From Apostichopus japonicus (Eukaryota; Echinodermata; Holothuroidea; Aspidochirotida; Stichopodidae): 64,000 bases of DNA. The first letter of the stretch is position 1. The number at the start of each line of letters is the position of its first letter. The stretch is from contig NC_092578.1 in NCBI RefSeq assembly GCF_037975245.1, positions 870,001 to 934,000 on the forward strand, read 5' to 3'. The position numbers were made by a program, and so were the translations under genes. This document shows, piece after piece, positions 15,470 to 62,300 of this stretch. The notes under the pieces are model-generated. The model was not told the DNA's origin, searched no databases, and was given only the letters and a program-made list of their open reading frames with translations.

Positions 15470-15873
15470 CTATAAACCAGTGGCGGAGCGTCCATACAGT
15501 CAGAGGGGGCGGATGCCCCCCCCCCCCCCGACGGACTCAAATGGACTGCTGGCGCCCTTTTCAGCTTTTTACCACTTTTTACTTATTCGCGATTATTGAC
15601 TTTTTTATTGCGCTCTCAAATACCTATTGACATTTGTCACAATTTGTTGGTGCAATTTTCTGACAAAATGGCGATGACACATTTATTCTTCGTTTATCTT
15701 CAAATTAGCAATGCCCGGAAAGGGTCATTTCCGGCGATGTAGGGAGTATCTTTACTCAAAAAAACCCGCCAACCTGTGTGGCGCTCCGCTTAGATAGTGC
15801 CGAAAGCGCCCCTATAGACCATTCTCGCCCCCCCCCCCTGACCAATACCCCAAGCTCCGCCACTGCTATAAAC
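15470..15873. mobile_element. Non-autonomous hAT-type MITE (388 bp) with 8-bp target duplication
   Basis: The element spans 15478-15865. Its ends are perfect 12-bp inverted repeats, CAGTGGCGGAGC on the left and GCTCCGCCACTG on the right. It is flanked by identical 8-bp copies of CTATAAAC at 15470-15477 and 15866-15873. An 8-bp duplication plus CAG-starting termini is the hallmark of the hAT superfamily. The interior contains C-homopolymer tracts near both ends and no transposase frame, so it would depend on a transposase encoded elsewhere. The intact ends and target duplication suggest a fairly recent insertion. Confidence 0.9.
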
Positions 15874-16409
15874 CATTTAAAAATTACACAATCAGGAAAC
15901 AAAATTAGTTATTTCCAAATTTAAGGGGAGCATCTACATTGAAGATGCCATTTAATGTTACGATTTTTTTCGGAAACTTCTGAACTTTATTTTCTGAACT
16001 TCTTGATAAGTAAGGTTTTTTTTACGGGAGGGCGTGGGGGGGGGGTATACATTGTGGGTTTTGTCCGAACTAATTTGGCTTTCAACGCTTTCGACCAACC
16101 TTAGCTATATAGCTGTTAAATGTTAAACTGAATGTTGTGGAATCCTGGACCTTTTCGGCTAAGATCATGTGTAGTATCTGTTCCCTTTCGAGGGGAATCT
16201 TGATACACACCTGACGATAATCACACAGTCACAATGAAAGGGGACTGGGATTGAGAGCGGATCAGTCGTTCGGTTTTTTTTTTCTCGGCCAGGTTCTTTC
16301 CTGGGTGATTACTTATAAAGTATCCCGCACCCGTCTCATTGCACACTTCAAACTTATTCTTAACTGACAGAAATGACGTTAATCAAAACGAAGTAAAGGA
16401 AAAAGTTCA

Positions 16410-20291: not shown

Positions 20292-23200
20292 TTATTTTGA
20301 CCCAGTAGCACAGTCTTCTCCCCCTCCACAAGCATTCTCGTTGAGAATGTCACTAAATATTCTAAGCAAATTCTCTAGCCCAAACACGAAATCTGAATCC
20401 GGTCCCTCATATGTTTCACCCCTTGTCCCTGAAAGTTCCCTGAATTCTGTGTGAGCAAAGTCAATCATTTTAATTTGAGCTAAACGACCGCCAGACTTTG
20501 GATCTTGGACATTATGATGATTTCTCTGCAGAGGAGGTGATGATGCTTTATGGTGATTTAAGTCTGGAATGTTTGAAGATGATGATGGTGATGAGATTGC
20601 AGGGTTTGTTCTCCTGTTTTTCCTGTTACAGAGCTCCTGAGTTTCATCCCGTATGAAAGTCTGTTTCCCAGAGTTATGTGAGCATTCCTTCACATCACTC
20701 TTCATCACTTTTTCCTCTTCAAGATCTCTGGCAGCCTCTTCTTCCTCTTCATCTTCTTCCAAGCCTGACCTCTCTGAATCCCAATCTGAGGCCAACCCTG
20801 AATCCTCTTCCCTAAAATCAAGCTCCTTTGTAGTTTGTGTAAGTTCCTCATGAAAGCCCAAATCTTGTTCTGTTTGGGTTCCACTTTTCACTATGTTTGG
20901 GTCACTCCCTCGATGAGTTTCCGTCCATGAACAGGACTGTGAAAACTGAGGAGATACGTTCGTATCAAAGTTACTCCCACAATAATTGTCAGAACCTTCA
21001 TAAATAATGAGAAGTGAACTTCCAAAAAATCTATATGAGTCTAGTTCTGACAATGTTTCTATTAGTCCTTGAATTTCCTTCATGATGGCTTCTATGACCT
21101 CCACTCTGACCCGATTACCGTTGAATACAAATTCTTCAACAGCTTGACGGAGTCCTTCCTCTGATAGCCGCCTCCCGTAGTACTTATTCCTGCAAATGTA
21201 TCGACCTTTGTCTGGTCTGTAAATCTGGGGAAGGAAATCAAAGATGAGTACCAAGAATTAAGTCTGAGACAGATTCAATTGATAAAAACACCGGATGGGA
21301 AATTGTCTGTGTTGCTAATATTTTTCAGCTTATATGCATCTATAAATAGCCCCAACATATACTTTCTACCCAGACTCTTTATTCTGCATTGCTCCAACAA
21401 CTCTTCAATAATTTTGTTTCAAAAGGTTGGAGTTATCTCAGTTTTGTGAAGCTAGAACAGACACCAACTAAATAGAACTGAAACCTTTTATCTTATTCTG
21501 ATTTCACAAACTGTACTCAAGCAAAGTTCTAACTCAAGTTGTAGATTCACATCGGACTAATGTCCAATCTGCAACAAGTGCTAATGTCAGGAAACCCAGC
21601 TGGACTACAGGATAAGATGTGCTATCCCAAAGTTTTCTTCAAAGACCTGCAAACTCTCAAAATCCCAAATGAGCAAAGAATAAGAAATACAGGCATGTTG
21701 GCAATATAACCTGCAACCTGTTTCTTACAACACCCAATTGTTTCTCACCTGCATGCCGCAAGCTCGTACCCCTAATTTAGCTGAAGTTGTACCCTCTACT
21801 TTTGCCATGTGTGATTGTTTCTTGGCCTCTGTGGCGTCATCTCCATAGCTACGGATTCCCATCTTGAGATCCAAAATGCAGGGATGGTGGAATTGATCTG
21901 CCACATTCTCTAATAATAAAAATTCTGTAAACATTTGTGTTAAGGCAAAGAAAGAAGATAAAAATCATATTCCATGCTCAATTATATTTTGTCACAAAAT
22001 CACAGAACTGAATCTTGAGGTCACCTTCACCACCCCCCCCCCCCCTCCCCATTCCACTAATTGATGTTCTCCCTATCTCCCACCGCATTCCTATTTTGAA
22101 GTCTTTCCTATCCTCACCTCTACCGATCATCATTTCCCCCATCCTCCTGCTTCTTCCAATCTTTTTATTCCTCCTCACCCCCAATCCTCACCCCCAATCC
22201 TCACCCCTAATCCCCACCCCCCACCCATTGTTACCTCCTAATCCCCACCCATTTCAGTCTAGTCATATTACTCATTCAAGGATACTGTGCGATTGATCAG
22301 CTGCCTCTGTCTTCTGCATCTTTGCTATTTGCTGTCGATGACAGTGCATGCTCCAGGGGTTGCAACCGAACCTGCGGTAGCCACTCTCTGTTGACATATC
22401 TTCAAATAGATCGTCGCTGTCTGAATCTTGATCAATGCTTAAGCTGCCACCCTGTGAGAACCTTACCCTGTGGGGTGATAGAGAGAGAAATATTACTGTT
22501 TTAAGTGCATTAGGAGACAGGTAAGAGAGGAGTGATGTCAATATTAATGTTTTAATCAACAATTTATTATATAGGTAACAATTGAATTCAGAGTGAAAGA
22601 TATTAGAAGCTACAGAATGCCAGAGGAAGGAACATCAGATATTTCATGACACAGCAAATCATGATTCAAATACATTCCCAAGTATGTTACAATCCCAACC
22701 AATAGGATTCATTACTTAACATATCAACAACAATATAAAAGCACCCTTCTATAAAACAACTGATTGGGATTAAACCTTTTGCCAATGTCAAGCCTCCTGT
22801 ACGACACCTATCAATATTCTTCTGTATCCAAATTGGACGAAATGACCATGTTCTCAGTGGAGTCCAATATGCTCATACTGTTTACTGAAAGTAACATATT
22901 CTGTTTGATAGTAACATGGAAGTAGTTCGATCGTCCCGGGCTCCTTTTTTTTTCTTTTAAAAACACAATGGCATTAATGATTAAAACATGTTAGTTTACC
23001 TGTATAGAGGTTTGGAAATTTTTGACCTTGTTTGCGAATTATGCATTCGGGACGCGCACCCAATCTTCTTTTGCTGCTCGTTGGAGCTTGTCCAATGTTT
23101 CAAATGTTTCTTCTCTGTCGTCTCACGATTGTTGTTGGTTTTTCTGGGATATGGAAAAGCCACCATATTGAGGTAACCATCCCTGGCTTTCTTTACCACA

Positions 23201-30332: not shown

Positions 30333-31149
30333 TAGACAAGTTTCACTCAGTGTGATTGACCTATATTTCTGCGACAAGAATGTTCGATTCTGAAAGTAAT
30401 GCAAACCGCAGATGTAGCCACAGTCCTAATGTTACAATCATTAGTTCTGTAACTAAGATATATGTTAAGTGTTGCTCTCAATATACTATGTGAATGACGA
30501 AACAGTTGAACAACTGAGACTGTGTGAAACTCTGTTACTAACATTAACATTAATAAATTAAAATAAGTAAGGGATATTAAGTGTAGTTTTGAGAAGGAAA
30601 AAACAACTTGTTTTAAAAATAAAATGTTAAATGGAAGAAATCGACAGGGACTCATGAGATTTGATCTGTGTATCCATGACCTGCTCTTGACTTTCACTAA
30701 TCATGCTAACATTTGGACATGTCGAAACTTTCTAGTCTTTTTTTAATTTTACAACTATAGACTGTGTCATGTCCTTTAGCCTACACACTACAGTATGCTT
30801 TGTACTATATATTACACGTATGTAAACCAGTATTGTTATAGATTGTAGTAGTAATCATTACAGCAAAAATAACACTTAACAGATAAAGTAATAAGCCAAC
30901 TTTTTCCTGCCTACAATATCAACGTTTTCCGAAAACTTACTGTTGTTTAGTTTTGGATACAATCGCCTGATAACACTACCACAGTGGCACTGACTAGCCT
31001 AAGCCCGACTTAGTGCACTGTAGCCTTTGGTCAGCACGTAACACTAACACTAGTATAGTAACAACAACGATACAGAACACTCTAACGGAAATAATGAAAA
31101 CTTGCAGGATAATTCGTCTCCAAAATCCTTACAACATTAACTGAATTCA

Positions 31150-32600
31150 CCAATCTAATGTAAAGTCCACAAACCTGCTAGTACCTTCACCGAATTAGTT
31201 TTAATCCACAGCGTAAATACAAATTCTTAAAAACATCGCAGTTTTCGTGCTTGCTGGTGTCACTATTGAACCTGTCCCCGAATAATAATTAATTCCGTAT
31301 GGTATAACGTCCATTGTGTGCAAATGATATGAATTAGTTGCTCCGGTACAACGTTCTACAATATGTTCACCGATACTGGTATAGCGCCCCAACCAGTGAT
31401 AACGTATTGCGAAATATAACCAGAAGTCTATGTTTGCGCAAGCGTCGTGAGTGGTTATAAATATTTATGAGGTAATTAAATACGTTCTCTGTAATTTAGG
31501 TATTCACATGGGCTCCCCGATTGTTTTAATCGAACAATCGTTTTCTCTCACATGTACAGAACATGATGGACGTTATAATTGGAGCAACCGGCAGCCGGGT
31601 TTGATCGTTTGCTGTCGGATTATGGGAGAGCACAAATCATTCTAGCGAATATAGGTCTGAAAGATGTTTTAGTCACATATTTTCTTAGCAGCGATGGGAA
31701 TTATTTCGAACGGAGAGCTGTTAAAATGTTCCAAATTGAGCTAGTACTCTATGCAAATAAACATGCCATAAATTCAACGATGGTGTATCACGCTCAAACA
31801 TTTGTATGTCTAATTTCGCCAATCTCATAATATTTTCCTTTACTGAGAGATACAATCGTCTAATTGAACTGCATCTCAATGCCTGGAAATAAGTACCATA
31901 GAACCGCTACAGACGGTTTTGTCGTAACTACACGTCAGTAGGTTCACAAATCATTTCTCTACTACTGAGTTGGCCCCATACCTTCCCCAAACCCCATTCA
32001 CCTTCCGTCGACTCGGGATTGTCAGAGAAGCATTTTTCTATACCCCGGCTGGTTACAAAAAGTTGGGCAAACATTTCCACAACACTGGGTTCCGTCATAT
32101 TTTTAAAAAATTAACATATATTTATGATAATTACTGTCTGCATTTTTCTTATTTTGGGGGAAAGTTTAGCCAAATTTGGTTGGATACATATACGTTGCAA
32201 TATGCGGTGGGGGTAAACACAGTACCAGTACAGCTTAGCATAGGCTATGCGAGTTGATATCTTCCCATGTTGTGCTTTGGTCTTAGTTTCCGAAATTATA
32301 AGAAGATTGGTTGTATACGGATCAGGGATGCGTGAAGTCAGGCGGTTGTCACATTCTAGACTTGATCGATCAATCCTTAATTTCAATTTTAAGATTGACA
32401 TGTTTTTCAGTTGCCAGCTGTTTTTCTTCTCGGTCGCCATGATATATGCCTCGACCTTTCGTACTAGCTGACGAAATACAATGTTGAAGTTGATCGAAAG
32501 GTTGATATTGGAAAAGCCACCGATCCAATCTTAGCAGAAATTGAAAGCGGCTGTCGACATACATTATCAAACGTCACAACCGTTCTTACATGGAGCTGTA
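31150..32600. promoter_or_regulatory. CpG-richer zone, possible promoter region
   Basis: CpG dinucleotides are clearly more frequent here than in the surrounding AT-rich DNA, for example near 31380-31450 and 32340-32560. The zone lies upstream of both IP6K (minus) and ANKZF1 (plus). AGCCTA/AGGCT words sit at 30.99-31.03 kb, on the IP6K side. No TATA box or start site can be fixed from sequence alone. Short frames beginning at 31392 and 32440 on the minus strand have no recognised homology. Confidence 0.25.
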
Positions 32601-34028
32601 ACTGCATCTAGCATGGGATAAGTATACACAAAGAAATTCAATAATTTCACCGTTTCGTACAGCTAGGGTCATTTTATTATTGTGTTGCTCCTTGATCTAA
32701 ACTAAACTGACTCGAACCAGGGAGTTGATATGGAACAACTCCCTGTTGAACCAAAGTAAGAGCGGGACCAAAAAGCATAGCTCCCTGTTGCTTCAACTCA
32801 GATGAACCATCATCAAAATAATATGCCAGCCTGAACTTTGCAAAAAAAACTAACATTTGGGAAACAAAACACTTAAGTATGAATTTAACCTAACTTTTGT
32901 GAAATTTTAGAAACACAATGTTGCCCATTCTCTTCTTTCGCCTTAATTTTACTTAAACTTACTTTGAGGCAAGTGGAGTGTAATAATAGTTTGATGATCC
33001 CTTCAACATTACGCAATCTTTACTCATGAAAGAGCTGTGGACAACTCAATGACTGCAAAGCCTTGGACTTGGCTACACTCCTAATGGTGGATGTTCTTTA
33101 AAACTTCAGACTTAGGATTTAAGCCTTAATCATTTAGAAATTGTGTCGCAACGTCGTTCGTTACTTTGTAATTGATGATTCTCAGAAATCCATCATAGTC
33201 CAGTGAAGGTGAGGTTGACATTCTAACTTCAGACTTCTTGTGCTTCTGACATAGGCATATCAGTTACCATCAATGTGGCAATAACAGTTACTGTAATTTA
33301 AAGACATGATGTGTGTTGCAACTTTAAGAAATAAAGAGAGAATTACTCTGTACTTTATGGAGATATCGTCTAACTTAGTATCACTTTTGTTTCGTGGACT
33401 GGCGGACCACATTACTGACTCTGTATGATAGACAAGTTGGCAAGTAACAGTAACAGTACAAATAAGAGAGGTTAAGTTTGTAACAGTAACAAATGTGTAA
33501 GGCATGCATAGCTTAGTAGGTAAGTAAAGGTTACTGTGGTATAAACTTGGGGTGTAATTAAACCAGGTATACTGAGTAACCAAGTATTAACTAGGCCTAC
33601 ATAAAAATACTTATGCTGTCACTCGGGCTAGTATTACTCATAAATTGAAAATTTCATGGTTGAAAATATATTCCCATACCAGTTATACCACCGTCCATGT
33701 GCTAATAGGTACAAATGAGATTACTCAATGTTATTCTTAGCTATATGTACAAGTACGAATGTTGTCAATGTATTCATGTTTGTGGTAATCATGTTTGTGA
33801 ATTTGTTCAAGTAATTGATCCAGCTCCCTTTTCCTTCTGTTGCCAGGAGTAAGTTCTTGTACAGTACGAGGGCCATGCACATTTTACAGCCAACTTTGAT
33901 GATCATTGTTACCTTTCACACTTTATTTTCTTGAGAAAAATTATACAATTGATAGGCCTACTATATCATCTTATAATTTTAGACTCATAGATTTCATAGT
34001 CTCATTTGTTTCTGTAGGAAGATATGAA

Positions 34029-37000
34029 ATGGCAGATGCACAGAGAATCAATCTCTCAGATAAAACATGTGTCAATCTGCTCCATGGATTAGTAATATCA
34101 CCATGGCAACCAAACATTTTTCAGAATGATGAGGAATCTATAGAGGCCCTTTTGGAACAGCAAATGAAAGGTATGTGATAAAATTTAAATAAAATTGATG
34201 AAATCATAATGTTTGTGGCTTGAAGGTTTTTAATTTTTTTATACAAATTTAGTTGTATTGTTGCACAGAAATCCTCATCATTGTTAGCCAGTGGTTGTCA
34301 TCAAATACGGACACTTTCAATACAATTTTTATCTGTTAACCTTGTTTCAATATTTATTAAGGTTATGGTTTTACTATTGTTACTCATTTATTTGTGCATA
34401 AGCCAAGTAATGAATATCAAATCAGTAACATTAAAAAGGAAGACAAAATTTCATTTACTTCACTTAAAATACACCTCATGAATGACCAAACCATGTTAAT
34501 TACTAGCAAATTAAATCTCTTGTGAGACTATTAGTTTTACTAGAAAGTTTTGGGGAATATTGTGCAAAATATGTTTTTGATTGGCTGATAGATGACATGC
34601 TCTCATCTTTATTCTTTTTGTTCCTTCATACAGATAGTCTTGAGAATCTGACTGTCTCCACTAAGATGTCATGTTCATTATGTGGTAGTTCTTTCCAGTC
34701 AAGACCTCAGCAAGTAAGTGTTGCTATTATTGATGACACTTTCAATCACTTCATTCAAAAGAATAAAAAAAAGCAAGGAATAATTTATCCAGTATAAAAT
34801 CTCAAAATGCTATACAGCTACACAAGTGTGAAGATGTGTCACAGTTTGTTACACAAGACCTACAGTATTCAATGAGAGAAAGATTCAGAGACTTCAAGAA
34901 TGCTACACAAAATTTGAACCCTGAAATTTGTTTCCTGATGAGCCAAGAACATGGAACAGTATGGCAAGAAAATATGATAGAGACAACACTTAAAACCAAA
35001 TAGAAGAAAGTAGAATTAAAACACTGCAAGACTTGAACTGACTGACTATTAAGATGTCCTCTCAAGTATCCAAATATGAAGCTCACACCCTTATTCTACC
35101 CACACTCTTGTTCCACCCAAGCACCAACTGCAACTTTGAAGGTTAAAGGATTAGTTTGCTCTGAAGCTGAGGATTTGTTCCATTTAGCTCATGAACTGAA
35201 CCAATCAAGAAAACTAGTGATAATTTATGCCTATATGTCTTTAATACCAACAAGTGTCTGGATGATACATTTGTATGGAAGCTCTGACAAATGGCTCATT
35301 ATTGAAACTTTAAACTTATTACAACCCCCCCTCTCCCAACCCTTCCCCCCACCAAAAAAGAAAGCTGCTTATCACATATGTATGTGACTCTGTGGTTTCT
35401 ACAGTTTAATAGAAAGAAATTGGTGATACTTAAATGATATTTGTATTCAACTACCAACTCACCTTTTGCATTTCTAACTTCAGATTTTCATGATTTTTCT
35501 TTCTGCAGACGGATCATTATAAGCTTGACTGGCATCGATTTAACCTGAAGCAAAGCATTATGGGAAAACCATCAGTCTCTGCTGAAGTCTTTGAGACCAT
35601 GACAGGTAAGCGTTAACATGTCACAGATCGACAATTCTTCCCTGGAAGAAATAAGCAATAGTTTTGCAACCTCGTCTGTATACAGTTGCATCTTGAGATT
35701 AAATATAAATTTTTGAATTGTGATTCATCATCGCTACATTATTTCTGAGAAAAGCCAAGAAAAAAAATGAAGAAATGTTGAGGAAATTCATAATAAGTGT
35801 AAAGACTTCAAAGGATGGTTAATGTTGAAAGGTGACTAACTGCAATTTCTGTCCTCAGATATCTTGTTAATATTCACTTCGGAGCAAAGGGGATTAACAA
35901 TAACTACCATCTTGGGTTAGTCGTTGTTGAGATCCGACCAGAAGTATCATTCAGTTGTGTTTTTAAACTATCATCACTCCAACCCTCATTTGATTCCATA
36001 CACTGCAAGAACAGGGTCTTGTCACTGTTTTCATTTATCCAACTGCTACTTAGAAGTACATCAAGTTATACATCCAATCTTATGAAACTGTTCCCTTGAA
36101 ACACAGTGACCTATGTCAACATTTTAACATGTTACACCACTACAGTATATACCTTTTCTTACTATTAACTTTGCGGATTCTTGTTTATCGTAACATATCA
36201 TCATTAATAAACCTGCAAGTAATTATCAAGAAGTCTTGTATTTCAGTCAGAATTTTGACAGGTACAAATCTTTTTCTGCCCTAAGGTGAAATTTCCAGCA
36301 TATCTGGCAGTGATGATGATGATAATGATGAGGATGTTGCAGACCCTACCACATCAAATACCAATGACTCTACCACGAATCAACGAAACAGAGACACAAA
36401 GGAATCTTCTAGGAGGTTACCCAAGGTATTCTTCAAGAACCATCAAGGACAGCTAGTGGCTGTTTACAGATGTTTACTTCAGTCTAAAAAGGTAAGATTG
36501 TCACAGCTTATAGCTGGTTTTTAAGTTGATTATAATGTGAGTGATATCATTAAGATATTGATAAATAGGGGAATGGATTTGACAGTAAAGAAGCCCTTGG
36601 AGACATAGATGGGGCATATTTCAAGTGATAAATCGAATCATGGTGTAAGTCGCTCTTAATATGATTGAATTTGTGCGGTCGTTAGACACCTCCAGGCTAT
36701 CTTCAGGGATGGAATAATTTTTGGTCAACTTCTTTTTGCACATATTTTGTTCAAATCAACACTGACTTGGAGCCAGATGTTTCATAGTTTTGAGTTGTCT
36801 CGTAATTGGTGGAACTATTAATTGTGTTATTAATGAAGTGCTGCTCAGGGAAACATCAGTGTAAACAAAGTAGAAAAGAATTTCCATCAAGTCCTTCTTC
36901 TTCAATAAGAGTCATTGCGACATCTTGAGAATCTTAAATATCATAGGCTGTGTATGAAGTTTACATTTTTAAACAGTGTTAGCATATATTAATTAAAGAT

Positions 37001-40000
37001 GAAATTTCCTTTATTGAATACTTTCATACCTTGTTATATAACACAGGAAGGATTGTTGACACAGTCAGAACTGGTTTCCAGGACAACAGAGCTTCCCTCT
37101 AACCTTCATTGGGCTATTTTAATGACTGCTGGTGGCCATTTTGCTGCAGCTATATATAATGGGTAAGTTTATGCATAATTGTATTCTAAGAAGGAATTTA
37201 GGATCACAGGGGATTAGTAAAGAGTGAAATAGAATAAAAACAAAGGGGGTTTGACATCTAGATCAAGGGATTTTTTAATAAAATATGACTTCAGTGATTG
37301 TTAATATTAATAGTCCTGATATAGGTAATCGTTACCATGGGAATGACACTGCTCTTTATTGTAAGCTCAGTGAAAGGTAACCCTCATGTCTTCAAAACAA
37401 AATGAATGAACTGAAAATCTAGATTCTGCATATGGACTCAAAAATAGGATATTGTTGGACCGGGGACATGTTATTCCAAATTTGTTGTTGAAATTTCTAT
37501 ATGTGGTTTTTTAAAGTCTTTATTGAATATTGAGTACAACTGAACTTGTCAAGTAATGGAAAGTGTTGACAAATCTGAACAATTTGTTATTAATAACTGT
37601 GTGTTTAGGCTTGTCAAATAATGGTACATACTGAAAACCTACTACAAGTATTGGATATCCAACAAGCAGGTTAAAAATGGCTATTTTAGCATTAACAAAT
37701 CAAATTTACATGCAATATCAGATAAATACTTCATAATTTCAATTCCTTGAACCGTCAATACAGTTTTGTATTCTGATTACTCTTTCCTATCATCTTACAT
37801 TTTCAGGTCAGAGATAGTTCATCACAAAACCTTTCACCGATATACAGTTAGAGCCAAGAGGGGGACAGCACAAGGTGTGAGAGACGGCCAGCAGGGGGGA
37901 CACGCTCCCAGGTATTTACTATTATGTGATATTACTCAAAACAGATCCCAGTTATACTTAATGCAAGGTTTGTATAACCTCAAAAGGCATCACAAAGCAA
38001 ATTATCCTGTCAGGTTTTAAAGTTTTTATAAAGTTTCTAAGGAATAGTGGAATCTAATTTGTCTTGGAATTTGGTAGGTCCCATTCAAAGCTGTCTTTTA
38101 ATAGTTGGTTTGAATCTGTGTCCACTTAATAAGATGGTTGAATCTGTGCCTACTAAAAGATGGCTGAATCTATGTTCACTCTTGAAGACAGAATTGTATC
38201 ATGTGCACAGCCATTCTGGACAGCTTTCCAACATGAACATTTTATCAGTGATTAAGTCATTTCTTCATTCGCAGTTGTTCCACTATGGCACAATAAGTGT
38301 CCTTTGCAGACTTGACAACAGTAATAATTTCAATTCTTTTCAAGATCTGCTGGAGCGGCGTTAAGGAGGTACAATGAAGCACAACTTCAAGAGAATGTTG
38401 GAAGTCTCCTCAGGTCATGGAAGGAGGAGCTTGATAAGTGTTCATGCATATTCATCAGGGCCCCATCTTACAATCGATCAGTGATTTTCAGCGGCAAGAA
38501 AGCATTATTAGACAGCCATGACAAGAGAATCAGGACCATTCCATTTCCCACCAGGAGGCCCACTTTAAAGGAAGTCCAAAGAGTGTGGAGTGTTCTTAGC
38601 AGTGTTGAATATTTTGGTTAGTGATCAAGACAGCTCTTTAATATTTACAAGTGATAATATATTAATTTAATTCTTTGTTTCTCCCTTATTTGCCTCATTT
38701 ACACTCTTCATCAGCCTAGCCACTGAACAACATTTTTATAGCACTGCACCAATATAACTGCTTACTTCTGGGTAATCTACAGTACCTCCTCCCGAGTGGA
38801 CGAGTCCAATCCATAATTTGCACCATTTGTACAAGGGAACAAGGGAGCGATAAACTTGAAATCTTGTTTTCATCTTGACACTAAGATATTACAAAATGCA
38901 GATGTTGATGCTAAAGGTATTGTCAAAGCCTTTCGAAGCATCAGGTCTGCACAGTGAACTGTAAGACCAGGGTTGCAACCATGAAGACTTCTGGGGGGGC
39001 TAACCCCCCCCCCCCCTCTGATGTACCATCTATGTGTGGTATAACCTAACAATATAGCACCATGTTGCATCTAAGTACCTCCCATTTTACCAGAATTTTA
39101 TCAAAGGGGAGAGGCCTCCACTTAGACCTTTCTCCTGGATGACAAGATCCCCCTCCCCTCCCCAGTTAATAATTGTGGTTTCGCCCCTGTGTAAGGCAAG
39201 TCACTCATGTTAACTCTGTCCACTTGTCCATGATGTGATAAGTATTGTTAGCTATATTAGTTTCAAGTTGTCAGGTACAGACAACCTATAAAACACATTT
39301 TATGTGTACTTTAAAAACAGCTGGTTGCATTTGTAATGTAACATCACAAATATTTATGAATAGCATATGATGTCACATTTGATGCATTTGTACTGTCAGA
39401 TTATAATAGTTTAACATTTTGATATGCTTGTAGGATATTTGTCTTTTTCTTCACAGTACTACACTAACATAGATATTAGATGTACGTCTTCTGCGCTATA
39501 TTCTAGGCAGGATTCCGCCATGCTCAAACTGTATGTTTATGGTATTTTTTTATTTATGTTATTAATAAAGTTTTGTTTTTTTCTAAATATCTTCATATTT
39601 CCTCGTTTTTTAAAAAATTTAGATGATGCAGAGGCAGCCGAGACTAAGTTCTTGAGTCCACCCGCCTCTCAGAAGCTGAAAGTAGATATCAAAGATGAAG
39701 ATAGTTCCAGAAATGATGAGAATGAAACAGAATCTCTCTCCATCAGTGAAGAGGTTGAGACCTCTGCAGGTGATGCAAACTTCATTTAATTGTTCAAAAG
39801 GTAGTGTCATTCCTGGTTCGATGGGTATCCAAGCTTCTCTGACTTCTGATGGAAGGGTAGATTTTCTGAAATAGTTTTGATACCGGAAGTTAGCAAGGTA
39901 CATAGTGAAACAGCTTGAGTCTGTTTTGGGGCATTCTTATGCACCATTACAATGGGAGTAATATCATGTCTACTTCTCTACTTGAATGTCTACTTGAATG

Positions 40001-43000
40001 TGATATGTGAATATCCCTAACTTAGATAGGTTTGTTAGGGACTGATCTAACTTAGAAATAGTTGGTTCAGCAGAATTCTCCTTTTCCTGAGGTCAGGGTT
40101 TCTATAAATCCCATTCCAGCCCAAAATTATCAGCTTTCAAAATCTTCATTAAATATTGATACTTTTGGCTTTGGATTTACTATTAGTTCATCCAATAGGT
40201 CTGTGCATTTCCCTGCTAATAGTGGAAATGTTTGACAATTTTATATAAAAAGACTTGATGACTTTTAGTATTTTATTAATATTTGAAATTTATATTCCGA
40301 AATTGTAATGATAAGATACTAGACTGTGGGTTAGGTTCCAAATGTAGATTAAATATCCTGAGAAGTTATCTTCTTTTTCATTGCTTGCATTTTATTTTAT
40401 TGCTCACACTCAAATATTTTTCTGTTTTATATTTATAGGAGTGAAATTTGAGAAGAAAGAAGAAAAGCAAGCTGAAGGCGATGACCTTGGCCAATCAGAT
40501 GGTTCTGATGGTTCAGTTGAGCTGATCTTAGAGGAAGTCACATCTTTGACTTCTCATCTTCGGGAATCAGACATCTTCATCCCAAAACAGAGAAGAAGGA
40601 GGAAAAAGAAGACACCCACATCCAAACCTGAAACATCTTTACAAGGTCTGTACATAGGATATCTGTCAATTGTTGGAAGTCTTAAACAAGTGGTATCCAA
40701 CTATACAAGGTCTGTACATAGGATATCTGTCAATTGTTGGAAGTCTTAAACAAGTGGTATCCAACTATACAAGGTCTGTACATAGGATATCTGTCAATTG
40801 TTGGAAGTCTTAAACAATTGGTATCCAACTATACAAGGTCTTTACATAGGATATCTGTCAATTGTTGGAAGTCTTAAACAAATGGTATCCAACTATACAA
40901 GGTCTTTACATAGGTTATCTGTCAATTGTTGGAAGTCTTAAGCAAATGGTATCCAACTATACAAGGTCTTTACATAGGTTATCTGTCAATTGATGGAAGT
41001 CTTAAACAAATGGTATTCAACTATACAAGGTCTTTACATAGGTTATCTGTCAATTGATGGAAGTCTTAAGCAAATGGTATCCAACTATACAAGGTTTTAC
41101 ATAGGTTATCTGTCAATTGATAGGTCTTAAACAAATGGTATCCAACTATACAAGGTCTTTACATAGGTTATCTGTCAATTTTTGGAAGTCTTAGCGGGTG
41201 TGTTTACCAGTTGAGGGCAGTAATAAACAATTGCTGTCCAGTAACACCAGTTTGTAGAATTGTAAGTTTTGTTTTGTTTTATAATTTGACAGACAAACAA
41301 CTTAGAAAGATCCAGACTACCATGTTTACTTGCTGTAAGACCGGTGATGAAGACACCTTTGAGAGGAAAATGAGCCAACTCAGACAAAAGATAACTCAGG
41401 ATATAGAAGCCGAGATGGAGAAAACCATCAGTCAAAGTAAAACCATCTCATTTGATGGAATTGAAGACAAAACCGATGGCGCTTCCTTGACAGGAGATTC
41501 AGAAAATATGTCCGAAACAAAACAAATCTTCAGTGCAGCAAGTGTAATTTCTGATACTAGTAAAAATGAAAGAATTGTGTCTCCATGTGAACAGCAAGCT
41601 TCAAACTTTGACTTGTTACAGAATGTCAAGAGGGAACAAGAAGTCAACAGCAGAATAGAATCCTTCTTGAATGAGAAACTCGATGCAAGTGGAAACATTT
41701 TACTACATGTTGCTGCCATCGAAGGTCACAGTATATTGTTGTGGAAATTGTTGTGTTATGGAGCTAACCCTGCTATCAAGTGAGTTTATTTTATTATTTA
41801 TTTGTGCTCTGATATTGACAAGAGATCTACAAGAATTCTTCCCTGTGTATTCCTCTTACCTTTTTTAATTATTTCAGGAATGGGAAAAGTCTACCTCCAT
41901 TTGCCGTGTCCAAAAATAAGACAATCAGACAAGATTTTCGGAGATTCATGGGAGAGTTTCCAGATAGATTTGACTATAAGACAGCTCAGGTCAGTAAAGC
42001 AGATTAGATTTGTTCAGTTACATTTTTTAATTCCCTAAATTTTCACATCCAGTGGAGGATTATCCAATGCGCAGATGAGGCAATCATCTAGTGGTCTCTA
42101 AGAATGTTACAAAAACGACCTACACAGAAGATGAAGTATAAGATTTTAGAAGAAATATAAATACAGAGTTAGAAAATAAAGAAACACATTGGTCCAACTT
42201 TCATGTTGATAGCTTGTTCAGTTGCTGAAAAAAAAGTTAAAACTTGTCTGATTTAAATAAATTGCAGTTATTTTTATTACATTTTATTTCTTTTCCTGAA
42301 ATCACAGATTCCAGCTCCTCTGTCTGCAGAAGAAGAAGCAATCAGAATAAACAAAGCTGCAGAGAAGAGAAGAGAACAAAAGAAAATAAAGAGGCAAAAA
42401 CAAAAGGTATGACAGCTTTAGTCCCTGAACCTAGTGATGTCACCTCTAAGGTAGCATAGACCTCTAGATCCTAACCAGTCCCTGAACCTAGTGATGTCAC
42501 CTCTAAGGTAGCATAGACCTCTAGATAAACCAGTCCCTGAACCTAGTGATGTCACATCTAAGGTAGCATAGATCTCTAGATCCTAACCAGTCCATGAACC
42601 TAGTGATGTCACCTCTAAGGTAGCATAGACCTCTAGATCCTAACCAGTCCCTGAACCTAGTGATGTCACCTCTAAGGTAGCATAGACCTTCAGATCCTAA
42701 CCAGTCCCTGAACCTAGTGATGTCACCTCTCAGGTAGCATAGACCTCTAGATAAACCAGTCCCTGAACCTAGTGATGTCACCTCTAAGGTAACATAGACC
42801 TCTAGATCCTAACCAGTCCCTGAACCTAGTGATGTCACCTCTAAGGTAGCATAGACCTCTAGATCCTAACCAGTCCCTGAACCTAGTGATGTCACCTCTA
42901 AGGTAGCATAGACCTCTAGATCATAACCAGTCCCTGAACCTAGTGATGTCACCTCTAAGGTAGCATAGACCTTCAGATCCTAACCAGTCCCTGGACCTAG

Positions 43001-44974
43001 TGATGTCACCTCTCAGGTAGCATAGACCTCTAGATAAACCAGTCCCTGAACCTAGTGAAGTCACCTCTAAGGTAACATAGACCTCTAGATCCTAACCAGT
43101 CCCTGAACCTAGTGATGTCACCTCTAAGGTAGCATAGACCTCCAGATCCTAACAAGTCCCCGAACCTAGTGATGTCACCTCTAAGGTAGCATAGACCTCT
43201 AGATCCTAACCAGTCCCTGAACCTAGTGATGTCACCTCTAAGGTAGCATAGACCTCCAGATCCTAACAAGTCCCCGAACCTAGTGATGTCACCTCTAAGG
43301 TAGCATAGACCTCTAGATCCTAACCAGTCCCTGAACCTAGTGATGTCACCTCTAAGGTAGCATAGACCTCTAGATCCTAACCAGTCCCTGAACCTAGTGA
43401 TGTCACCTCTAAGGTAGCATAGACCTCTAGATCCTAACCAGTCCCTGAACCTAGTGATGTCACCTCTAAGGTAGCATAGACCTCCAGATCCTAACAAGTC
43501 CCTGAACCTAGTGATGTCACCTCTAAGGTAGCATAGACCTCTAGATCCTAACCAGTCCCTGAATTTAGTGATGTCATGTCTAAGGTAGCGTAGACCTCTA
43601 GATCCTAACCAGTCCCTGAACCTAGTGATGTCACATCTAAGGTAGCATAGATCTCTAGATCCTAACCAGTCCCTGGACCTAGTGATGTCACATCTAAGGT
43701 AGCATAGATCTCTAGATCCTAACCAGTCCCTGAACCTAGTGATGTCACCTCTAAGGTAGCATAGAGCTCTAGATCCTAACCAGTCCCTGAACCTAGTGAT
43801 GTCACATCTAAGGTAGCATAGACCTCTAGATAAACCAGTCCCTGAACCTAGTGATGTCACCTCTAAGGTAGCATAGACCTCTATATCCTAACCAGTCCTT
43901 TCACCTAGTTATATCACATAAAAGGTAGCATAGACCTTCAGATCCTAACCAATCCCTGTACCTAGTGATGTCACCTCAAAGGTAGCATAGACCTCTAGAT
44001 CCTAACCAATCCCTGTACCTAGTGATGTCATCTCTAAGGTAGCATAGCTCTCTAGATCCTAACCAGGGTGCAGTATTGATATACTAAATACTTTTTACTC
44101 AGATATTAAGTTCATTATTACTACTTGTTTCCTCAATGACTTCCAGGAACAAAAGGAAGAACAGCAGCGAGTGGAGGAAGAAGAAAGAGAACAGCAGATA
44201 TTTGCTGCCCTTAGTGACAGAGAAAAGCGAGCCATTGCTGCTGAGAAACGGCTGGAAAGCCAACTCATCTCTACAAAGTAAATGCAGGGTTTAGTCATAT
44301 GTTTGGGGTGGTACACACCTTAGAATGACTGAGGGTAAAACAACTTAAGCATCATGCATAGGCTTTCAAACAGAGCTATGGTATTTCTCCAAAACCTGAC
44401 CTATGTCGTGGTTCCTGTTAGAAATTCAAAAACTTGCCTGCAATGTTAGGACAATGTAACACCATCCAAACGACCCCCAGTTGAGTACTTAATCGCCCCA
44501 CCCCCCATCTCACCACCAGAGGGCTGAGAATAATTTCACTTCCTATAAAATGCTACATTGGGTTGTCATACTTTCTCATAAATGCCCATAAGTGCCATTA
44601 AATATTTTAATTCAAATTATACATTCATTGCCACAAATTGTGATGTTAATTCACAGCAAATATATTAATATTTCATTCATAACAATTGTCAATTGTATCG
44701 GACAAATGGCAAAATTACATTAAGCCTTGATATTGTGCCTTAAGCAGCATCACATCACTCACTTACCTTGTGTTACAGATAGTTTCACATCTGATTTTCA
44801 AATGATAGAAATAAGATAATTCATTTAACCGGATTTGATTTCTTTTGTTTCTCCTGCAGTCGTTGCTTTTCCTGCGCAACCAGCTTAGATGGAAAGGTTC
44901 CGTTCCATTATTCCGACTATAATTTCTGTTCAATGAATTGCCTGAAGACACATAAACAACAACAGCAATTATGA
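34029..44974 (+). CDS. ANKZF1: ANKZF1 / Vms1-family peptidyl-tRNA endonuclease (14 coding exons)
   Basis: Ribosome-associated quality control factor: it frees stalled nascent chains on 60S subunits by cutting the peptidyl-tRNA and binds p97/VCP. Exons: 34029-34170, 34634-34713, 35509-35605, 36286-36491, 37047-37162, 37807-37911, 38345-38616, 39623-39769, 40439-40645, 41293-41779, 41878-41989, 42308-42406, 44147-44277, 44860-44974; all in phase, 771 aa (human about 726). Zinc finger C61/C64/H77/H83; acidic linker in exon 4; VLRF1 release-factor domain about 150-330 with the catalytic glutamine in RGTAQG (Q236); Lys/Arg-rich segment RRRRKKK before the exon 9 donor; ankyrin repeats near 590-640 ([10 protein letters not shown]); coiled coil; a perfect VCP-interacting motif RX5AAX2R at 715-725; and a C-terminal Cys/His cluster C736, C739, C757, C761, H765. 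The ATG at 34029 is 10 bases into its exon, so 5' UTR exon(s) lie upstream. Confidence 0.97.
37807..37911 (+). other. ANKZF1: ANKZF1 exon 6: catalytic GxxQ loop
   Basis: This exon encodes the loop [16 protein letters not shown]. In Vms1/ANKZF1 the glutamine of this loop (Q236 by this gene model) takes the place of the GGQ glutamine of eRF1 and is required for nascent-chain release. Its presence argues that the enzyme is active. The exon ends AG and joins exon 7 to give the family continuation [14 protein letters not shown]. Confidence 0.9.
38960..39197. mobile_element. Degenerate hAT-type MITE (222 bp) in ANKZF1 intron 7
   Basis: The element spans 38968-39189. The left end CAGGGTTGCAACCATGA and the reverse complement of the right end, CAGGGGCGAAACCACAA, agree at 12 of 17 positions. 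The flanking 8-mers TGTAAGAC (38960) and TGTAAGGC (39190) agree at 7 of 8, as expected for an aged hAT-type duplication. The interior has a G7 run followed by a C13 run, like the C-rich interior of the element at 15478, and no coding capacity. Confidence 0.65.
40641..41192. repeat. 64-bp minisatellite, about 8.6 copies, duplicating a splice donor
   Basis: Units start with ACAAGGTCT at 40641, 40705, 40769, 40833, 40897, 40961, 41025, 41089 (as ACAAGGTTT) and 41150, a strict 64-bp period until a 3-bp loss near the end. The first unit contains the last five exonic bases of ANKZF1 exon 9 and its donor (ACAAG/GTCTGT), so nearly every unit carries a copy of the exon-intron junction. Copies 2 and 3 keep GTCTGT; most later copies have GTCTTT. 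The array occupies most of intron 9 and ends about 100 bp before the exon 10 acceptor. Confidence 0.95.
42407..44066. repeat. 57-bp minisatellite, about 29 copies
   Basis: Fills nearly all of ANKZF1 intron 12, beginning within about 15 bp of the donor at 42407. The core of each unit is CCTGAACCTAGTGATGTCAC followed by CTCTAAGGTAGCATAGACC. The period is 57 bp, with some 55-bp units lacking two bases near AGATAAACC. Higher-order patterns occur: the CTTCAGATCC, CTCCAGATCC and AGATAAACC variants recur in blocks, suggesting amplification of multi-unit segments. Because 57 is 19 codons, the minus strand is open for 276 codons (43030-43860), reading a 19-residue repeat; this is a by-product rather than a gene. 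Confidence 0.97.
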
Positions 44975-48900: not shown

Positions 48901-51900
48901 CAGCGATTTGAATTAACTCTCAATCAGTTTGGGCCATATCGAATGGATTATACTCGTAATGGCAGATTTCTAGCCCTAGCAGGAAAAATGGGTCACCTGA
49001 CAGCTTTTGACTGGGTCAGCAAACAACTCTTGTTTGAGATCAATGTGATGGAAACGATTACAGACGTCCAGTGAGTTTGGGTCAAAGGTCAAATTGAAAG
49101 TGTGATAACACAAGTTGGCAAGAAAGTTCATATTATTTGAGTTTCTTCCATGATTATAGTGATGACTTCAATTTTCCACTATTTTGATATTTGTGACCTA
49201 ATTTGACTTTTTTTATCATCCTAGAAATTCCTCTTCTGAATTGTTCTTTCTTTGTTAGGCTAATCTTTTAATATTTGCATCGTCATAATTTTCTAAAGAT
49301 CAATTTGTTGTCTTCACATTCTGTAAATTGACAGATAAATATTAATAATATGGTTCGAATCATTAAGTGATATTACAAGATTGATTTTTTCTAAGTCTTT
49401 CAAATCACTTTAATTAATATAATTTATAATTAAATTATTAAGTTAGGTCAGTTGTGTTGTGTGGTTTGTGATTTCCATAGCTAAGGAATATAGTGAAAAC
49501 AAGACAACAGTATTGCAGACAATTAATTCCATTTTTGGTAAACAGTTTCTCTGATTTTTTTTTCCATCAGATGGTTACACGTAGAGACGATGATGGCTGT
49601 CGCACAGAAGAAATGGCTGTACATGTATGACAATACTGGAACAGAACTCCACTGTATCAAGTCAATGAGCAGTGTTCTACGAATGTCATTTTTACCGTAT
49701 CATTTCCTATTGGCTGCAGCTGTAAGTCCTTCTCTGTCACCTGCAAACAGATCCATAATTTCATCAAAGCGTACTCCATTACTTTAACACAGTTTATGTC
49801 AATCAGAAACAAAACTTTTTACCTATTATAGATATAAAAATGTTAAAAAATAGCTGAATTTTTAAAGTTTATATGTATGGCTTATAGCCTAACATACTAG
49901 CGCTGACAAGTTCTTTTATCTCCTGTCTCCTGTTAAGACTTTCTTAAGAAATTCCATTATGTGGTGGGTGACAACCATTGAGGTATTTTACAAGTATGAT
50001 GGATGCTTCTGTTGACTGGATATCTTTGGTGTATTATTAGCATAGTCCAGGTAGTGATTGGATTATAAAAAAGTAATAAATGAAAAGACTATCTTTTGAT
50101 AATTATGTAATATAAGTACTGATGATACACTGTTGTTTGTTTAATATTATATTAGGAGATTAATCTTGTTTTTATTATGATTGTTTTCAGACTAATTATG
50201 GAGCCCTTCAATATTTAGATGTATCTATGGGTAAAATGGTATCTGAAATAAAGACCAAACAGGGCAGGTTGGATGTTATGGCACAGAATCCACAGAATGC
50301 TGTTATACACCTTGGTCATACGGATGGTGAGTATAACATTACTAAAGAATTTTATCATTATCAGTGATATATTATCATTAATATAAAATTGAATATGCAT
50401 CGTTTTAATAAGAAGATATGATAATGGGGATTCTGATCCCATAAAGCTTAAGTTGAAGTGAATGTTTACTTTTCAAACAATTTCCCACAATATTTGTAAA
50501 TATATTTTTCCTACATCTTTTGATTATACATTTCCTTTACATCCACCATTCATTGAATGTGCAAATAAGTTTTACAGCAGAAATGAATATGCAGTGTATC
50601 TTTATATTTGTTACTATTCACTGAAGTGCAATAACTATATTCATTAACTTCCACTGAATATTCAAAGTATGCTAATTTCTTGTAACAGGAAGAGTGACAA
50701 TGTGGACACCAAACCAACATGAACCTGTGGTGAAGATGATGTGTCATAAGTCTGCTGTCCGTTCCGTGGCTGTTGACCCTAAAGGACGGTAAGAATTAAT
50801 ATCTGCAGATAATTAGTTAGTGTGTGGGAATTAATAAAAGACATTTACTTTTAGCAGATTGGAAGTCAATTGTGGTGGCCAAAATCCAACTAAACCAATT
50901 GTTATATACCTTGTAAAATCAGAACTGGTTAAAGGAAGGACTGTAAATACTAAAATTGACAATTTGCCTTTTTTTTTTGCTCAAATTGGAGAAGCAAATA
51001 TTGATCAAAGAACTTTGAAAACATTTGAAAACATTGTATTTATTACAATTACATAAAAATCTGATTTTTTTAAAAATTTGAAAATCCACCCGGATGCTCA
51101 CGTCAGATAACAAAAAGAGGATATGTGGGGAAATTTGGATTTATGTTAGCTAACTAGCCATGAGTGCATAACCACTTCATATTTTAAGCATACTGTCATA
51201 ATATAAAACACATTGTTACAGTTAACTGCTGGCAGTACAATTTGTGTACATGTTGCATTCTTTCATTATTTGACAGATACATGGCTACATCTGGGATTGA
51301 TAGAACCATTAAGATATACGATCTCAGGACATATAAACCTCTACAGTCCTATAGAGTGGCCCACGGAGCCAACGAACTTCGGTTCAGCCAAAGAGGGCTT
51401 CTTGCAGGAGCGTCTAATAATATTGTCGAGGTAAAAACATTTGGTTATCCCATTGACTTTACTTTTATATGTCCTTCAAGGCTTATCAATCTATCAGTTG
51501 TGCTGTTGACCCTCAGTGAGTAGACTGTCACCATATGTTAAATTATAAGCAAAAGTAGAAATAAGTAAATTGCAATATTTCTAAGAATGAATATGTTGGC
51601 TAGGAAATCAACACCAGCTTGTTCAAAAAGGTCTGATCAGTTTAATGTTTCCTAGCATTGCATAAATATTGCATCATATAATTACAAATATACAGAGTCA
51701 ACTAGCATGTAAGACTACGAAAACCAGGAACTACAGCACACACATGTTTATGTGGAATTGTGAAATGGCATATTGTAGCAAGGACAAGTTAAATTGTAAC
51801 AAGTTTGTCTTTTTGAAAGCTTCCATAACCAGGTTTTATTTTTATTCATTTTGCAGATCTTTAAAGATAGTTGCACCATTGCCCAGGATAAACCTTACAT

Positions 51901-59314: not shown

Positions 59315-62300
59315 TTATTCCTCTTTTGGAGCCTCTGTAGATATGCCAGCCTCTGTGCTTAATTCCTCCACAGGACTGGATGCGATACTCTTGTGGATGT
59401 TATCTCTCGTTTCCTGCTCCATTTTCTGATGATTATAAGAGAAGATCTCATAAATATTCGGTAGGGGTGGGGGAAGACACCATGACATGGTTTCAGTATG
59501 GAACCACCCAGATAGGGTCCAAGGGTAACCTATCCCTCTCCCCCACTCTACCCTCTTACTTTCCAGAGAACAATCGGGCATGAACAGTCACCATGTGATA
59601 ATTAACAAAGGAAAGGAGACCAGAGAGTAAAATGTGGCGAGTAATTAATTTTCTTAATTAATGTTTTACCTTCAAAGCCTGTCTTCTCTTGTATTCTAGC
59701 TTGGCCAGTTCCGTCTGTACCCAGTATGGTGTGTCAGGAATAGCTATGGATATACCTAGTTTAAGAGCCAGGATAATGTGCTAGGAGATAAACCAAGAAA
59801 AGACCAAATGTTTACACCTTAGTGTAGAAAAGTCTATTGATGTTTCAACTAAAACAATTTCAATAAAGAAATTACTGTCATGCTGAGATGGGACGCAACC
59901 AGGCAGGCCTTGAGGAGCAACTAGGCATGACTTGAGGAGCAACTAGGCAGGCGTTGAGGGCAAAGAGAGGCTGAACCAAATCACTCTTAGATAATCTAAG
60001 ATAGTGAGATGTCCACTACATAATAAATGATTTAGAGATGAGTGTAAATACCATCAGATGGCTTTTGTTTCTTTATGTTCCTTTGACCTCTTGACATACT
60101 ATGTAGATAAGATTTATTATTGTAAGTGAATTCTCATCACCCCATCAATACAAAATTTCTGTATTACTCTTTTAACTTATTTTGTGTATATATTACTGAT
60201 TGTGGTATAAAGTGATGCTCCATTTGGCCAATTTATGTGTGTTCCTCTGGTCTATATCTAGATTACTTATTGTGGTGGGTGAACGCTTCCAACGCCATTT
60301 GGGAAATCTGTTTGTTTCACTCTGACCTCTAATGTGTATAGATCATTGTAAAAAAATACTCCCCTACCCTACGCCCAGTTTGGGAAAGCTTAGCACACTC
60401 ACTCGGCTGGTTTAATTACAGTGTCATAATTATTGCATTAACATTATCCTGCTTTGTTACCACAGATAGCATGCCAAACAAACTGTTGTGGAGTAGAATA
60501 TTATATGTACAAGGTGAAAACCTTACAATATAAGCTCACCTCCAACAAAGCAACAATAAGGAAAATACCAACAGCCGTGTACATTGGGAAGACATCCTGA
60601 AGTTGACCTGAGATACCAAGCAACGCACAGTTAACAGACACACCCAGCATACCTATCACCTCCATGGCATACTGTAACAGAAATGAAACTATGACGATAG
60701 GAATCTACACAGGTGAGCAATAATTTACTACTCGTGAGAATAACAGCAGATTCAGTTAGGAATAAGAGGTGTATTGACTTATGAGGGATGCAAGATATAA
60801 AAGTATAGTGAACCACCAAGCTACAGTACTTAACATTTAGAACTAATAAATAAAGAATTGTTTATCAAATATTGTTTATGATTATTGGAATGCATGACAC
60901 TAGATACATCTAGGATAAATACCCTTCCCACCCTCCCCCAATCCCCCATATATTCTAAATGTGGTCCATGAAAGATTGCCTTTGCTCTCAACTTTTCTTC
61001 TGTAACATTGAGTAGTATCAATATTGTAACTTTTTTTTGGAACAAGTACTGTGAATAAATTCAGGTAAAAGACTCCATTTACACTGCCCCAATGCATCCG
61101 ATATAAACACATGTGGTCCTAGAAATTGGTCTGTTCTTCCAAAGGGTGTCTTACGGTTGTTTCTTCTTTTACAAAGCAATTATGTTAAGTTCAGAATGAA
61201 TATTCATAAGTAATTTGCATTCATAACTTCAAGAAATAAGTAAAGTTCTTAAATTTTACAACTATTATATGCCACATATACCTGCCAGGATCCAATATTT
61301 TGTACATGCTGTCCAAATGGCCTCTGTTTGTTTGTGCAAAGCTTGAAGGCGTCACTTCTGATCTCAATGACATTATTTACAAGTGCCCAGAATGCAGCCA
61401 ATGGGAACGCAGAAGAAAATAATGTCACATATCCAAACTGAATGAACATCTCAAGGAAGTCGTTAAAGGTATCCTGAGAAAAGAAAAAAAGACGTCGATC
61501 TTAATCTCATTGCACAATTCATTGATAGAGTGACACATAAACAATAACAGGAGTTTTAGTGTTTAATACCCAATGGGTAGATTAATTAAAAGTACATATC
61601 TGCTTCTTCCCATCCCCCCCCCCGGCTCCCTGCCCAGCCCCTGCCGGCACAGTAAAAATTTGGTCTTGAAATTACTCACTTCATAACGTTCCATCTTGCT
61701 TTCAACCTCAGCCTGGCTGATGGTGTATTTCTTAGACGCACCATCGGCTTCATCTGTTTGTTCATGTGTCCCCTCAGATACACCCTCCGGTGACCCCTCA
61801 GATACACCCTCCCGTGACCCCTCAGTTGACCCCTCTGCCGCACCTTCCTTTTTTCTAGCTTCCTTGACTTCATGTTCTGCGACTTTGAATGCCAGTTTGT
61901 AGACTTTCAATTTTTCTTTGATGTAAGGAATCACAGTCTCTGTGATGTTCCCAATCACGTGTTTGGTGATGAAAAGAGTCGCTATTGTCTGTGAATACAA
62001 GAAATAAATCAGTCAAACATTAGCTGCTGAATCATGAACAGCTAACTGAAATACATTGATGGAGACAAATGGGTTGTGCTGGGGGGGAGGGGGGAGGGTG
62101 TCAACCCTGAATTTGAATTACAAAAGTCTTCTTTTCTTTTTGCTCTCTTTCCCAAATGAGACCTTTGCTAACTTCTCAACTGTAAGCTGAAAATAAGGCA
62201 ATCAAAACTACTAGCAATCTGTACAATTTCTGTACTTTTACTAATTATTTATAGAGTAATGGAGGGGTGTAGTGAGTGGTGGTAGGAGGCAATTCAGTTC

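Follow-up and report, generated by a model that had tools for sequence, protein, structure and literature searches.

Canestro reportedly described minisatellites of this kind in amphioxus in 2002 under the name mirages, and later work is said to have followed. Intron gain by tandem duplication of AGGT is said to go back to Rogers in 1989, and introns derived from tandem arrays were, going by the title as cited in PMC2812944, reportedly the subject of Zhuo in 2007. According to the excerpts available of the amphioxus reports, mirages are minisatellites that span an exon–intron boundary, with units of tens to about 160 bp and with AG/GT signals in many of them, and they occur in several genes of a single genome (Adh3, globin, TnC, and PGBD5), the PGBD5 and troponin C cases having been added in the accessible text of PMC3902484. 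Some of these arrays are on the donor side and that of the globin gene BflGb6 is on the acceptor side; the same excerpts report that regular splicing is undisturbed. Going by its title, a human minisatellite provides multiple splice donors (Turri, 1995, cited in PMC3618361), so that donors within repeats appear to be used somewhere. In the portions consulted, PMC4039745 connects alternative splicing in C. elegans with a minisatellite, PMC2812944 deals with minisatellites that alter gene structure, PMC4974935 deals with intron gain by AGGT duplication, and PMC10809524 describes dual-specific AGGT sites in tandem repeats together with 792 human introns within tandem repeats. The matches listed in our literature searches held no echinoderm case, which is no proof of absence.

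The window analyzed here is a stretch of 64,000 bases (C18:870001-934000 of the assembly), in which a 64-bp minisatellite crosses the donor of an ANKZF1 exon. With a probability of roughly 0.83, we read it as a donor-spanning minisatellite of the amphioxus mirage kind that is tolerated since the exon-adjacent donor is chosen.

Materials and Methods

Donor strength was scored with a model built from 12 donors of ANKZF1, that of exon 9 being omitted. The base rate of donor-spanning arrays was sampled in this genome at matches to the Pfam entries for protein kinase (PF00069) and RRM (PF00076), where 131 of 1182 kinase candidates scored gave 134 matches and 150 of 235 RRM candidates gave 108. The first set consisted of the best 30 kinase and the best 30 RRM matches, with loci of 3.1-3.9 kb (L002-L061), all of which were used. 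The second set comprised 100 of the 182 remaining matches (60 of 104 kinase, 40 of 78 RRM); it was picked by hand after L018 had been found and before the letters were seen, and long single-exon frames were mostly passed over. Its donor windows were 501 bases about the 3′ end of each match. The 160 matches are not all independent, because some are exons of one gene or near-duplicates. Arrays were counted where TRF reported a period of 15-300 spanning the best-scoring donor, with a donor cut-off of 4. As an acceptor control, 401 bases about the 5′ end of the same 100 matches were taken, and the donor windows were cut to equal length.

Results

Fourteen coding exons at 34018-44974 join into a single open frame of 771 aa. 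The product matches the Pfam families bVLRF1 (E 1.8e-55) and VATC (1.4e-12), with the VLRF1 domain at aa 197-338, and it matches structures of yeast VMS1 (best E 2.1e-39); an R-x5-AA-x2-R motif, which we take to be the VCP-interacting motif, is present at aa 715-725. The name ANKZF1/Vms1 is sound on these grounds; a sequence-only reading of this DNA had already called the gene ANKZF1. The Pfam ankyrin match at aa 591-621, encoded by exons 10-11, is weak (0.0095, under the curated cut-off). Vms1, the yeast relative of ANKZF1, is a factor acting on stalled ribosomes. Other frames of the window lie at 5350-5652, 8183-8602, 8790-9077, and 51188-51520 on the plus strand and at 20295-21257 and 61566-62012 on the minus strand; the Pfam types among these neighbors are PIP5K-type kinase, inositol polyphosphate kinase, WD40-like (weak), and anoctamin-like.

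Exon 9, in a numbering that starts at the first coding exon, occupies 40439..40645 on the plus strand, has phase 1 at both ends, and was delimited by its open frame, its splice signals, and a comparison of 118 in-frame GT/AG pairs from exon 9 to the next exon. The best of these pairs is 40645/41293 (16.4), and the second best (10.0) uses donor 40645 with another acceptor; the best pair with a different donor is 40709/41267 (8.3). Intron 9 (40646..41292, plus strand) is 647 bases long, 548 of which are array, and its acceptor at 41291-41292 lies beyond the array. Exon 10 (41293..41779, plus strand) is the first portion that would be lost upon use of a downstream donor. A search of exons 9-11 against the genome gave three matches, which are the three exons themselves, and hence no ANKZF1 retrocopy that could serve as a record of splicing.

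The 64-bp minisatellite extends over 40640..41193 on the plus strand (TRF: period 64, 8.7 copies, 95% matches, score 961), beginning with six bases (TACAAG) inside exon 9 that are followed by GTCTGT. Split at TACAAGGT, it yields nine units starting at 40640, 40704, 40768, 40832, 40896, 40960, 41024, 41088, and 41149, with 64 bp in units 1-7, 61 bp in unit 8, and 45 bp in the partial unit 9; AG/GT is retained in all nine. Units 1-3 (40640..40831, plus strand) carry AAG/GTCTGT, with the presumed real donor after 40645 in unit 1 and its copies after 40709 and 40773, and units 4-9 (40832..41193, plus strand) carry weaker donors, namely AAG/GTCTTT in five (units 4-7 and 9) and AAG/GTTTTA in unit 8. 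Units 1 and 2 are identical and unit 3 differs by one base, so that differences among units 1-3 number 0-1; units 5-9 are more diverse (1-3 differences) and depart from unit 1 at 3-5 positions, a pattern as in ordinary minisatellite turnover. When the array stretch was searched against its own assembly (671.6 Mb, 35 contigs), with simple repeats and very common words skipped, it was found in one place.

The sequence-only reading had proposed a minisatellite of 8-9 units across the exon 9 donor, each unit including the last five exon bases and the donor. Array and unit number agree with the coordinates above, which cross 40645/40646, and the unit does hold the exon end and the donor, with six shared exon bases (TACAAG) in place of five. 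The further claim that the unit copies the exon–intron junction is borne out as far as the exon-end/donor join recurs in the unit, and is ambiguous at ANKZF1 as to copying, where 6 bp could be microhomology. The ladder of potential donors that the reading described is likewise present, with AG/GT in every unit and with donors 2-3 identical to donor 1.

Intron 12 of ANKZF1 holds a second minisatellite (42420-44066, 57 bp x 29) that starts after 13 intron bases. It contains 29 weak AAG/GTAGCA-like sites, scoring 0.7-4.6 as against 7.9 for the real donor. We rejected this array as a copy of the exon 12 junction, since only AAGGTA is shared and 546 of 2000 shuffles were as good. A 285-codon open frame on its minus strand (43033-43887), very unlikely to be a gene, is explained by a period of 57 being a multiple of 3.

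Scores of the donor model were 8.65 for AAG/GTCTGT, 6.0 for AAG/GTCTTT, and 3.75 for AAG/GTTTTA, and U1 duplex energies were −6.8 kcal/mol for GTCTGT and −4.1 kcal/mol for both GTCTTT and GTTTTA. By both measures donors 2-3 equal the real donor and donors 4-9 are weaker; because donors 1, 2, and 3 are identical across 9 bases and have the same U1 energy (−6.8 kcal/mol each), sequence strength alone does not favor donor 1. The real exon 9 donor ranks sixth of the 13 donors of the gene by leave-one-out score. Among 4000 random 64-bp stretches of ANKZF1 introns, 0.2% held a GT as good as AAG/GTCTGT and 14% one as good as AAG/GTCTTT. Purines make up a fraction of 0.68 of the 60 bases preceding donor 1 and of 0.55 ahead of donor 2, and the five purine-rich words tested (GAAGAA-type) occur in the end of exon 9 and are absent from unit 1. 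This purine-rich exon end is consistent with a choice by exon context, of which it is no proof. Predicted RNA accessibility does not favor donor 1 (unpaired 0.28, vs. 0.31 and 0.35 for donors 2 and 3), and sequestration of donors by RNA folding was rejected as a candidate, the unpaired values spanning 0.28-0.63 over the nine donors with donor 1 not special.

When joined to the acceptor 41293, only donor 1 of the nine yields the 771-aa frame. With this normal acceptor, donor 2 (+64) causes a frameshift and a product of 482 aa, and products of 491 aa result from donors 3-9; exon 9 extended past 40645 runs in frame into a TAA at 40747..40749 (plus strand), the stop foreseen for such an extension. 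The truncated products retain the VLRF1 domain but are without the VATC domain, the VCP-binding-like motif at aa 715-725, and the ankyrin-like stretch. The expectation that downstream donors truncate the protein before the ankyrin repeats and the VCP motif was therefore correct for the normal acceptor and failed for donor 2 paired with the poor acceptors 41258 or 41267, which keep the frame open (pair scores 7.2 and 8.3, respectively, vs. 16.4) and make a longer in-frame product conceivable.

Donor-spanning arrays recur elsewhere in this genome, at five of the 160 sampled matches; these represent four independent cases (95% interval 0.7 to 6.3%) and not five, because L086 and L087 are a near-identical pair. 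The first set contributed one of 60 (L018, donor score only 4.04), 35 of its 60 matches having a donor above the cut-off of 4, and the second set contributed four of 100 (L086, L087, L106, and L126), with 88 of 100 above that cut-off. Pfam-matched coding sequence continues into the array in all five loci, where the exons end in ...VGVICYTL (L018), ...VVTLWYRAPELLLAIK (L086), ...GILMFELLTG (L106), and ...LYVSYVDK (L126); open frame beyond the Pfam match makes up the last 58 bases before the donor in L126 and the last 9 in L086/L087.

The array of L018 (1854-2354, G000:C23) is a 31-bp minisatellite of about 16 units that spans the donor of a kinase-gene exon. One of its inner units matches the exon end at 14 of 14 bases, with its own GT reading AT, and the other inner sites match at 3 to 12 of 14, only one of them below 8. 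L019, a paralogue of L018, has a donor at the corresponding place, and an array spanning that donor is absent. At L086 and L087, two places 3.3 Mb apart on G000:C11, a 70-bp array at a kinase exon end has a mostly coding unit (64 and 63 exon bases plus GTGAGC) and extends to the limit of the bases retrieved at each place. Within the 501 bases viewed of each, L106 has a 42-bp donor-spanning array of at least 11 units in a kinase gene, with 19 exon bases copied, and L126 a 152-bp donor-spanning array of three units in an RRM gene, with 76 exon bases copied. The GT is kept at 16 of 17 sites in L018, 7/7 in L086, 7/7 in L087, 11/11 in L106, and 3/3 in L126 (for L086, L087, and L106 within 501 bases). 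Read-through in the five sister loci hits a stop codon before donor 2 and before every downstream donor seen, whereas donor 2 of ANKZF1 fails by frameshift.

These arrays also bear on the suggestion of the earlier reading that GTCTTT in the later ANKZF1 units reflects decay or selection against use, which we do not uphold: the change from or to GTCTGT amounts to one G/T step, falling between units 3 and 4, with T also in unit 9 at the far end, and the other donor-spanning arrays mostly keep their donors intact. An outgroup would be needed to read the direction of the step. The donor 9-mer varies more than the remainder of the unit in two of six arrays (ANKZF1, 0.143 v 0.048; L086, 0.074 v 0.042) and varies less in four (L018, 0.058 v 0.127; L087, 0 v 0.022; L106, 0.052 v 0.079; L126, 0 v 0.021), and on this count decay of decoy donors was rejected as a general rule.

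Arrays extending out of the exon and covering 5 or more matched coding bases were found on the donor side of four of the 100 matches and on the acceptor side of none. The first 60 loci held no acceptor array under a criterion that differs from that of the 100 and required an array no more than 10 bases from an acceptor scoring above 4. A donor bias is thus suggested and not demonstrated, since the totals of 5 v 0 of 160 give a two-sided Fisher value of 0.061 and the independent cases of 4 v 0 give 0.12, and since the acceptor test in the first 60 was unlike that in the 100. Of the 100 donor windows, arrays covered 4 at the end of the match and between 4 and 8 at points deeper in the intron, the four donor-spanning arrays included, so that arrays are not enriched at donors; on the acceptor side they covered 2 to 5 of 100 windows from 50 bases out. 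As arrays are common inside these introns, donors do not keep them out, unlike coding sequence and perhaps acceptors. Arrays at L201 and L220 reach open frame upstream of the match and neither the match nor the best-scoring acceptor, and the array at L031 ends 129 bases before the match.

Mitochondrial sequence was also met in this assembly. Contig C35 (16,099 bases) is mitochondrial, with COX1 followed by an ND4L-like frame and COX2. Its COX1 reads as an open frame with genetic code table 5 as well as table 9, of which table 9 yields the more usual residues, and this order of genes is that of echinoderms. Pieces of COX1 at 14745-16086 and 30842-31219 of G000:C29 have matching ends 16,097 bases apart, near the 16,099 of C35, and C29 looks like a mitochondrial concatemer or insert.

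Discussion

Splicing of ANKZF1 most likely uses 40645, with the remaining donors tolerated; we infer the choice of the first donor from its setting. We infer the mode of array growth in the same manner: a tandem duplication may have started a few bases inside exon 9, or may have been seeded by the TACAAG common to exon end and intron, so that each unit would repeat the exon-end/donor join. The duplicated unit would have been amplified into the intron by ordinary minisatellite turnover, and into the intron only, because the exon side is coding and cannot change. Donor 40645 would be joined to 41293 almost always, favored by its position beside the purine-rich splicing signals of exon 9 and by definition of that exon as a whole. 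The later donors would act as passive decoys: if spliced to the normal acceptor, they would lead to a stop codon and probably to RNA decay. With the first donor in use, the array is probably harmless, or neutral, for ANKZF1.

As regards origin only, the chance is a little below even that the unit was not copied from exon 9 and that a chance intronic TACAAG, 64 bases downstream, seeded slippage, the exon bases being microhomology. Six bases are shared unbroken (10 of 12 with mismatches allowed), and a search for more homology in the 79 exon bases upstream of the array, run with no shuffle control, yielded nothing beyond a 6-base match (ATCCAA). The sister arrays speak against this origin, as they copy 14 to 76 exon bases, and it is certain that their units copy exon sequence.

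The donors could also be in use, some transcripts being spliced from donors 2-3 into truncated or decayed mRNA and the repeat number tuning ANKZF1 output. We consider this improbable even though donors 2 and 3 match donor 1 in 9-mer and U1 energy and a human interferon-induced transcript has been recorded with a minisatellite that supplies several donors (Turri, 1995, from the title and a citing sentence): all eight downstream unit donors truncate the protein with the normal acceptor, the four independent sister arrays in kinase and RRM genes bear the same burden, and amphioxus mirages are, in the excerpts available, reported to splice normally. It is very unlikely that the array is removed stepwise, with the AG/GT at unit boundaries acting as both acceptor and donor and steps of 64 bases rebuilding the exon end without a trace in the mRNA. 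AG/GT is kept in 9/9 units, as this would require, and human UBC is spliced at dual-specific AGGT sites within tandem repeats according to the accessible part of PMC10809524, but the AGs of the units make poor acceptors, with scores of −0.6 to 1.8 in eight units against 7.8 for the exon 10 acceptor, and lack a pyrimidine tract. These scores are weak evidence, because real ANKZF1 acceptors also score as low as −1.2.

Work on how splicing selects one of several identical donors lying close together has usually relied on engineered genes. The arrays described here offer between 3 and 17 natural donors, nearly identical to one another, within conserved genes, so that donor choice could be read from ordinary RNA-seq of one animal, and nearly every wrong choice in them leads to a stop codon. 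Tentatively, and with some doubt, donor-spanning minisatellites may form a common, donor-biased class in this echinoderm genome, whose persistence in conserved genes would amount to a natural experiment in which, among up to about 17 near-identical donors, the spliceosome selects the one closest to the exon, and acceptors are not tolerated alike.

In comparison with introns arising by AGGT duplication and with UBC, the ANKZF1 array shares an AGGT in each repeat unit and differs in that intron 9 is not bounded on both sides by the repeat. There is no sign that the repeat made this intron, because the intron ends outside the array at an ordinary, unique acceptor and its 647 bases are not a multiple of 64. 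We take the gene of the human minisatellite with multiple donors to be IFI6 (6-16). ANKZF1 resembles it in a tandem repeat that supplies several splice donors and differs in that, going by the title of that report, the human donors take part in transcript splicing, whereas donors 2-9 of ANKZF1 are putative.

The likeness to the amphioxus mirages is closest. Like them, the ANKZF1 array spans an exon–intron boundary (40640-41193 across 40645/40646), its units bear splice signals (AG/GT in 9/9), and arrays of this kind occur at several loci of the genome (L018, L086/L087, L106, and L126). Unlike them, the arrays described here are from what appears to be an echinoderm genome, known from the DNA sequence of one assembly, and all are on the donor side (0/160 at acceptors), whereas the amphioxus BflGb6 array is, in the excerpt available, on the acceptor side. 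What this analysis adds is the finding of such arrays at several genes of one further genome, along with a sampled rate and a donor/acceptor comparison; if the echinoderm assignment holds, mirages extend beyond amphioxus.
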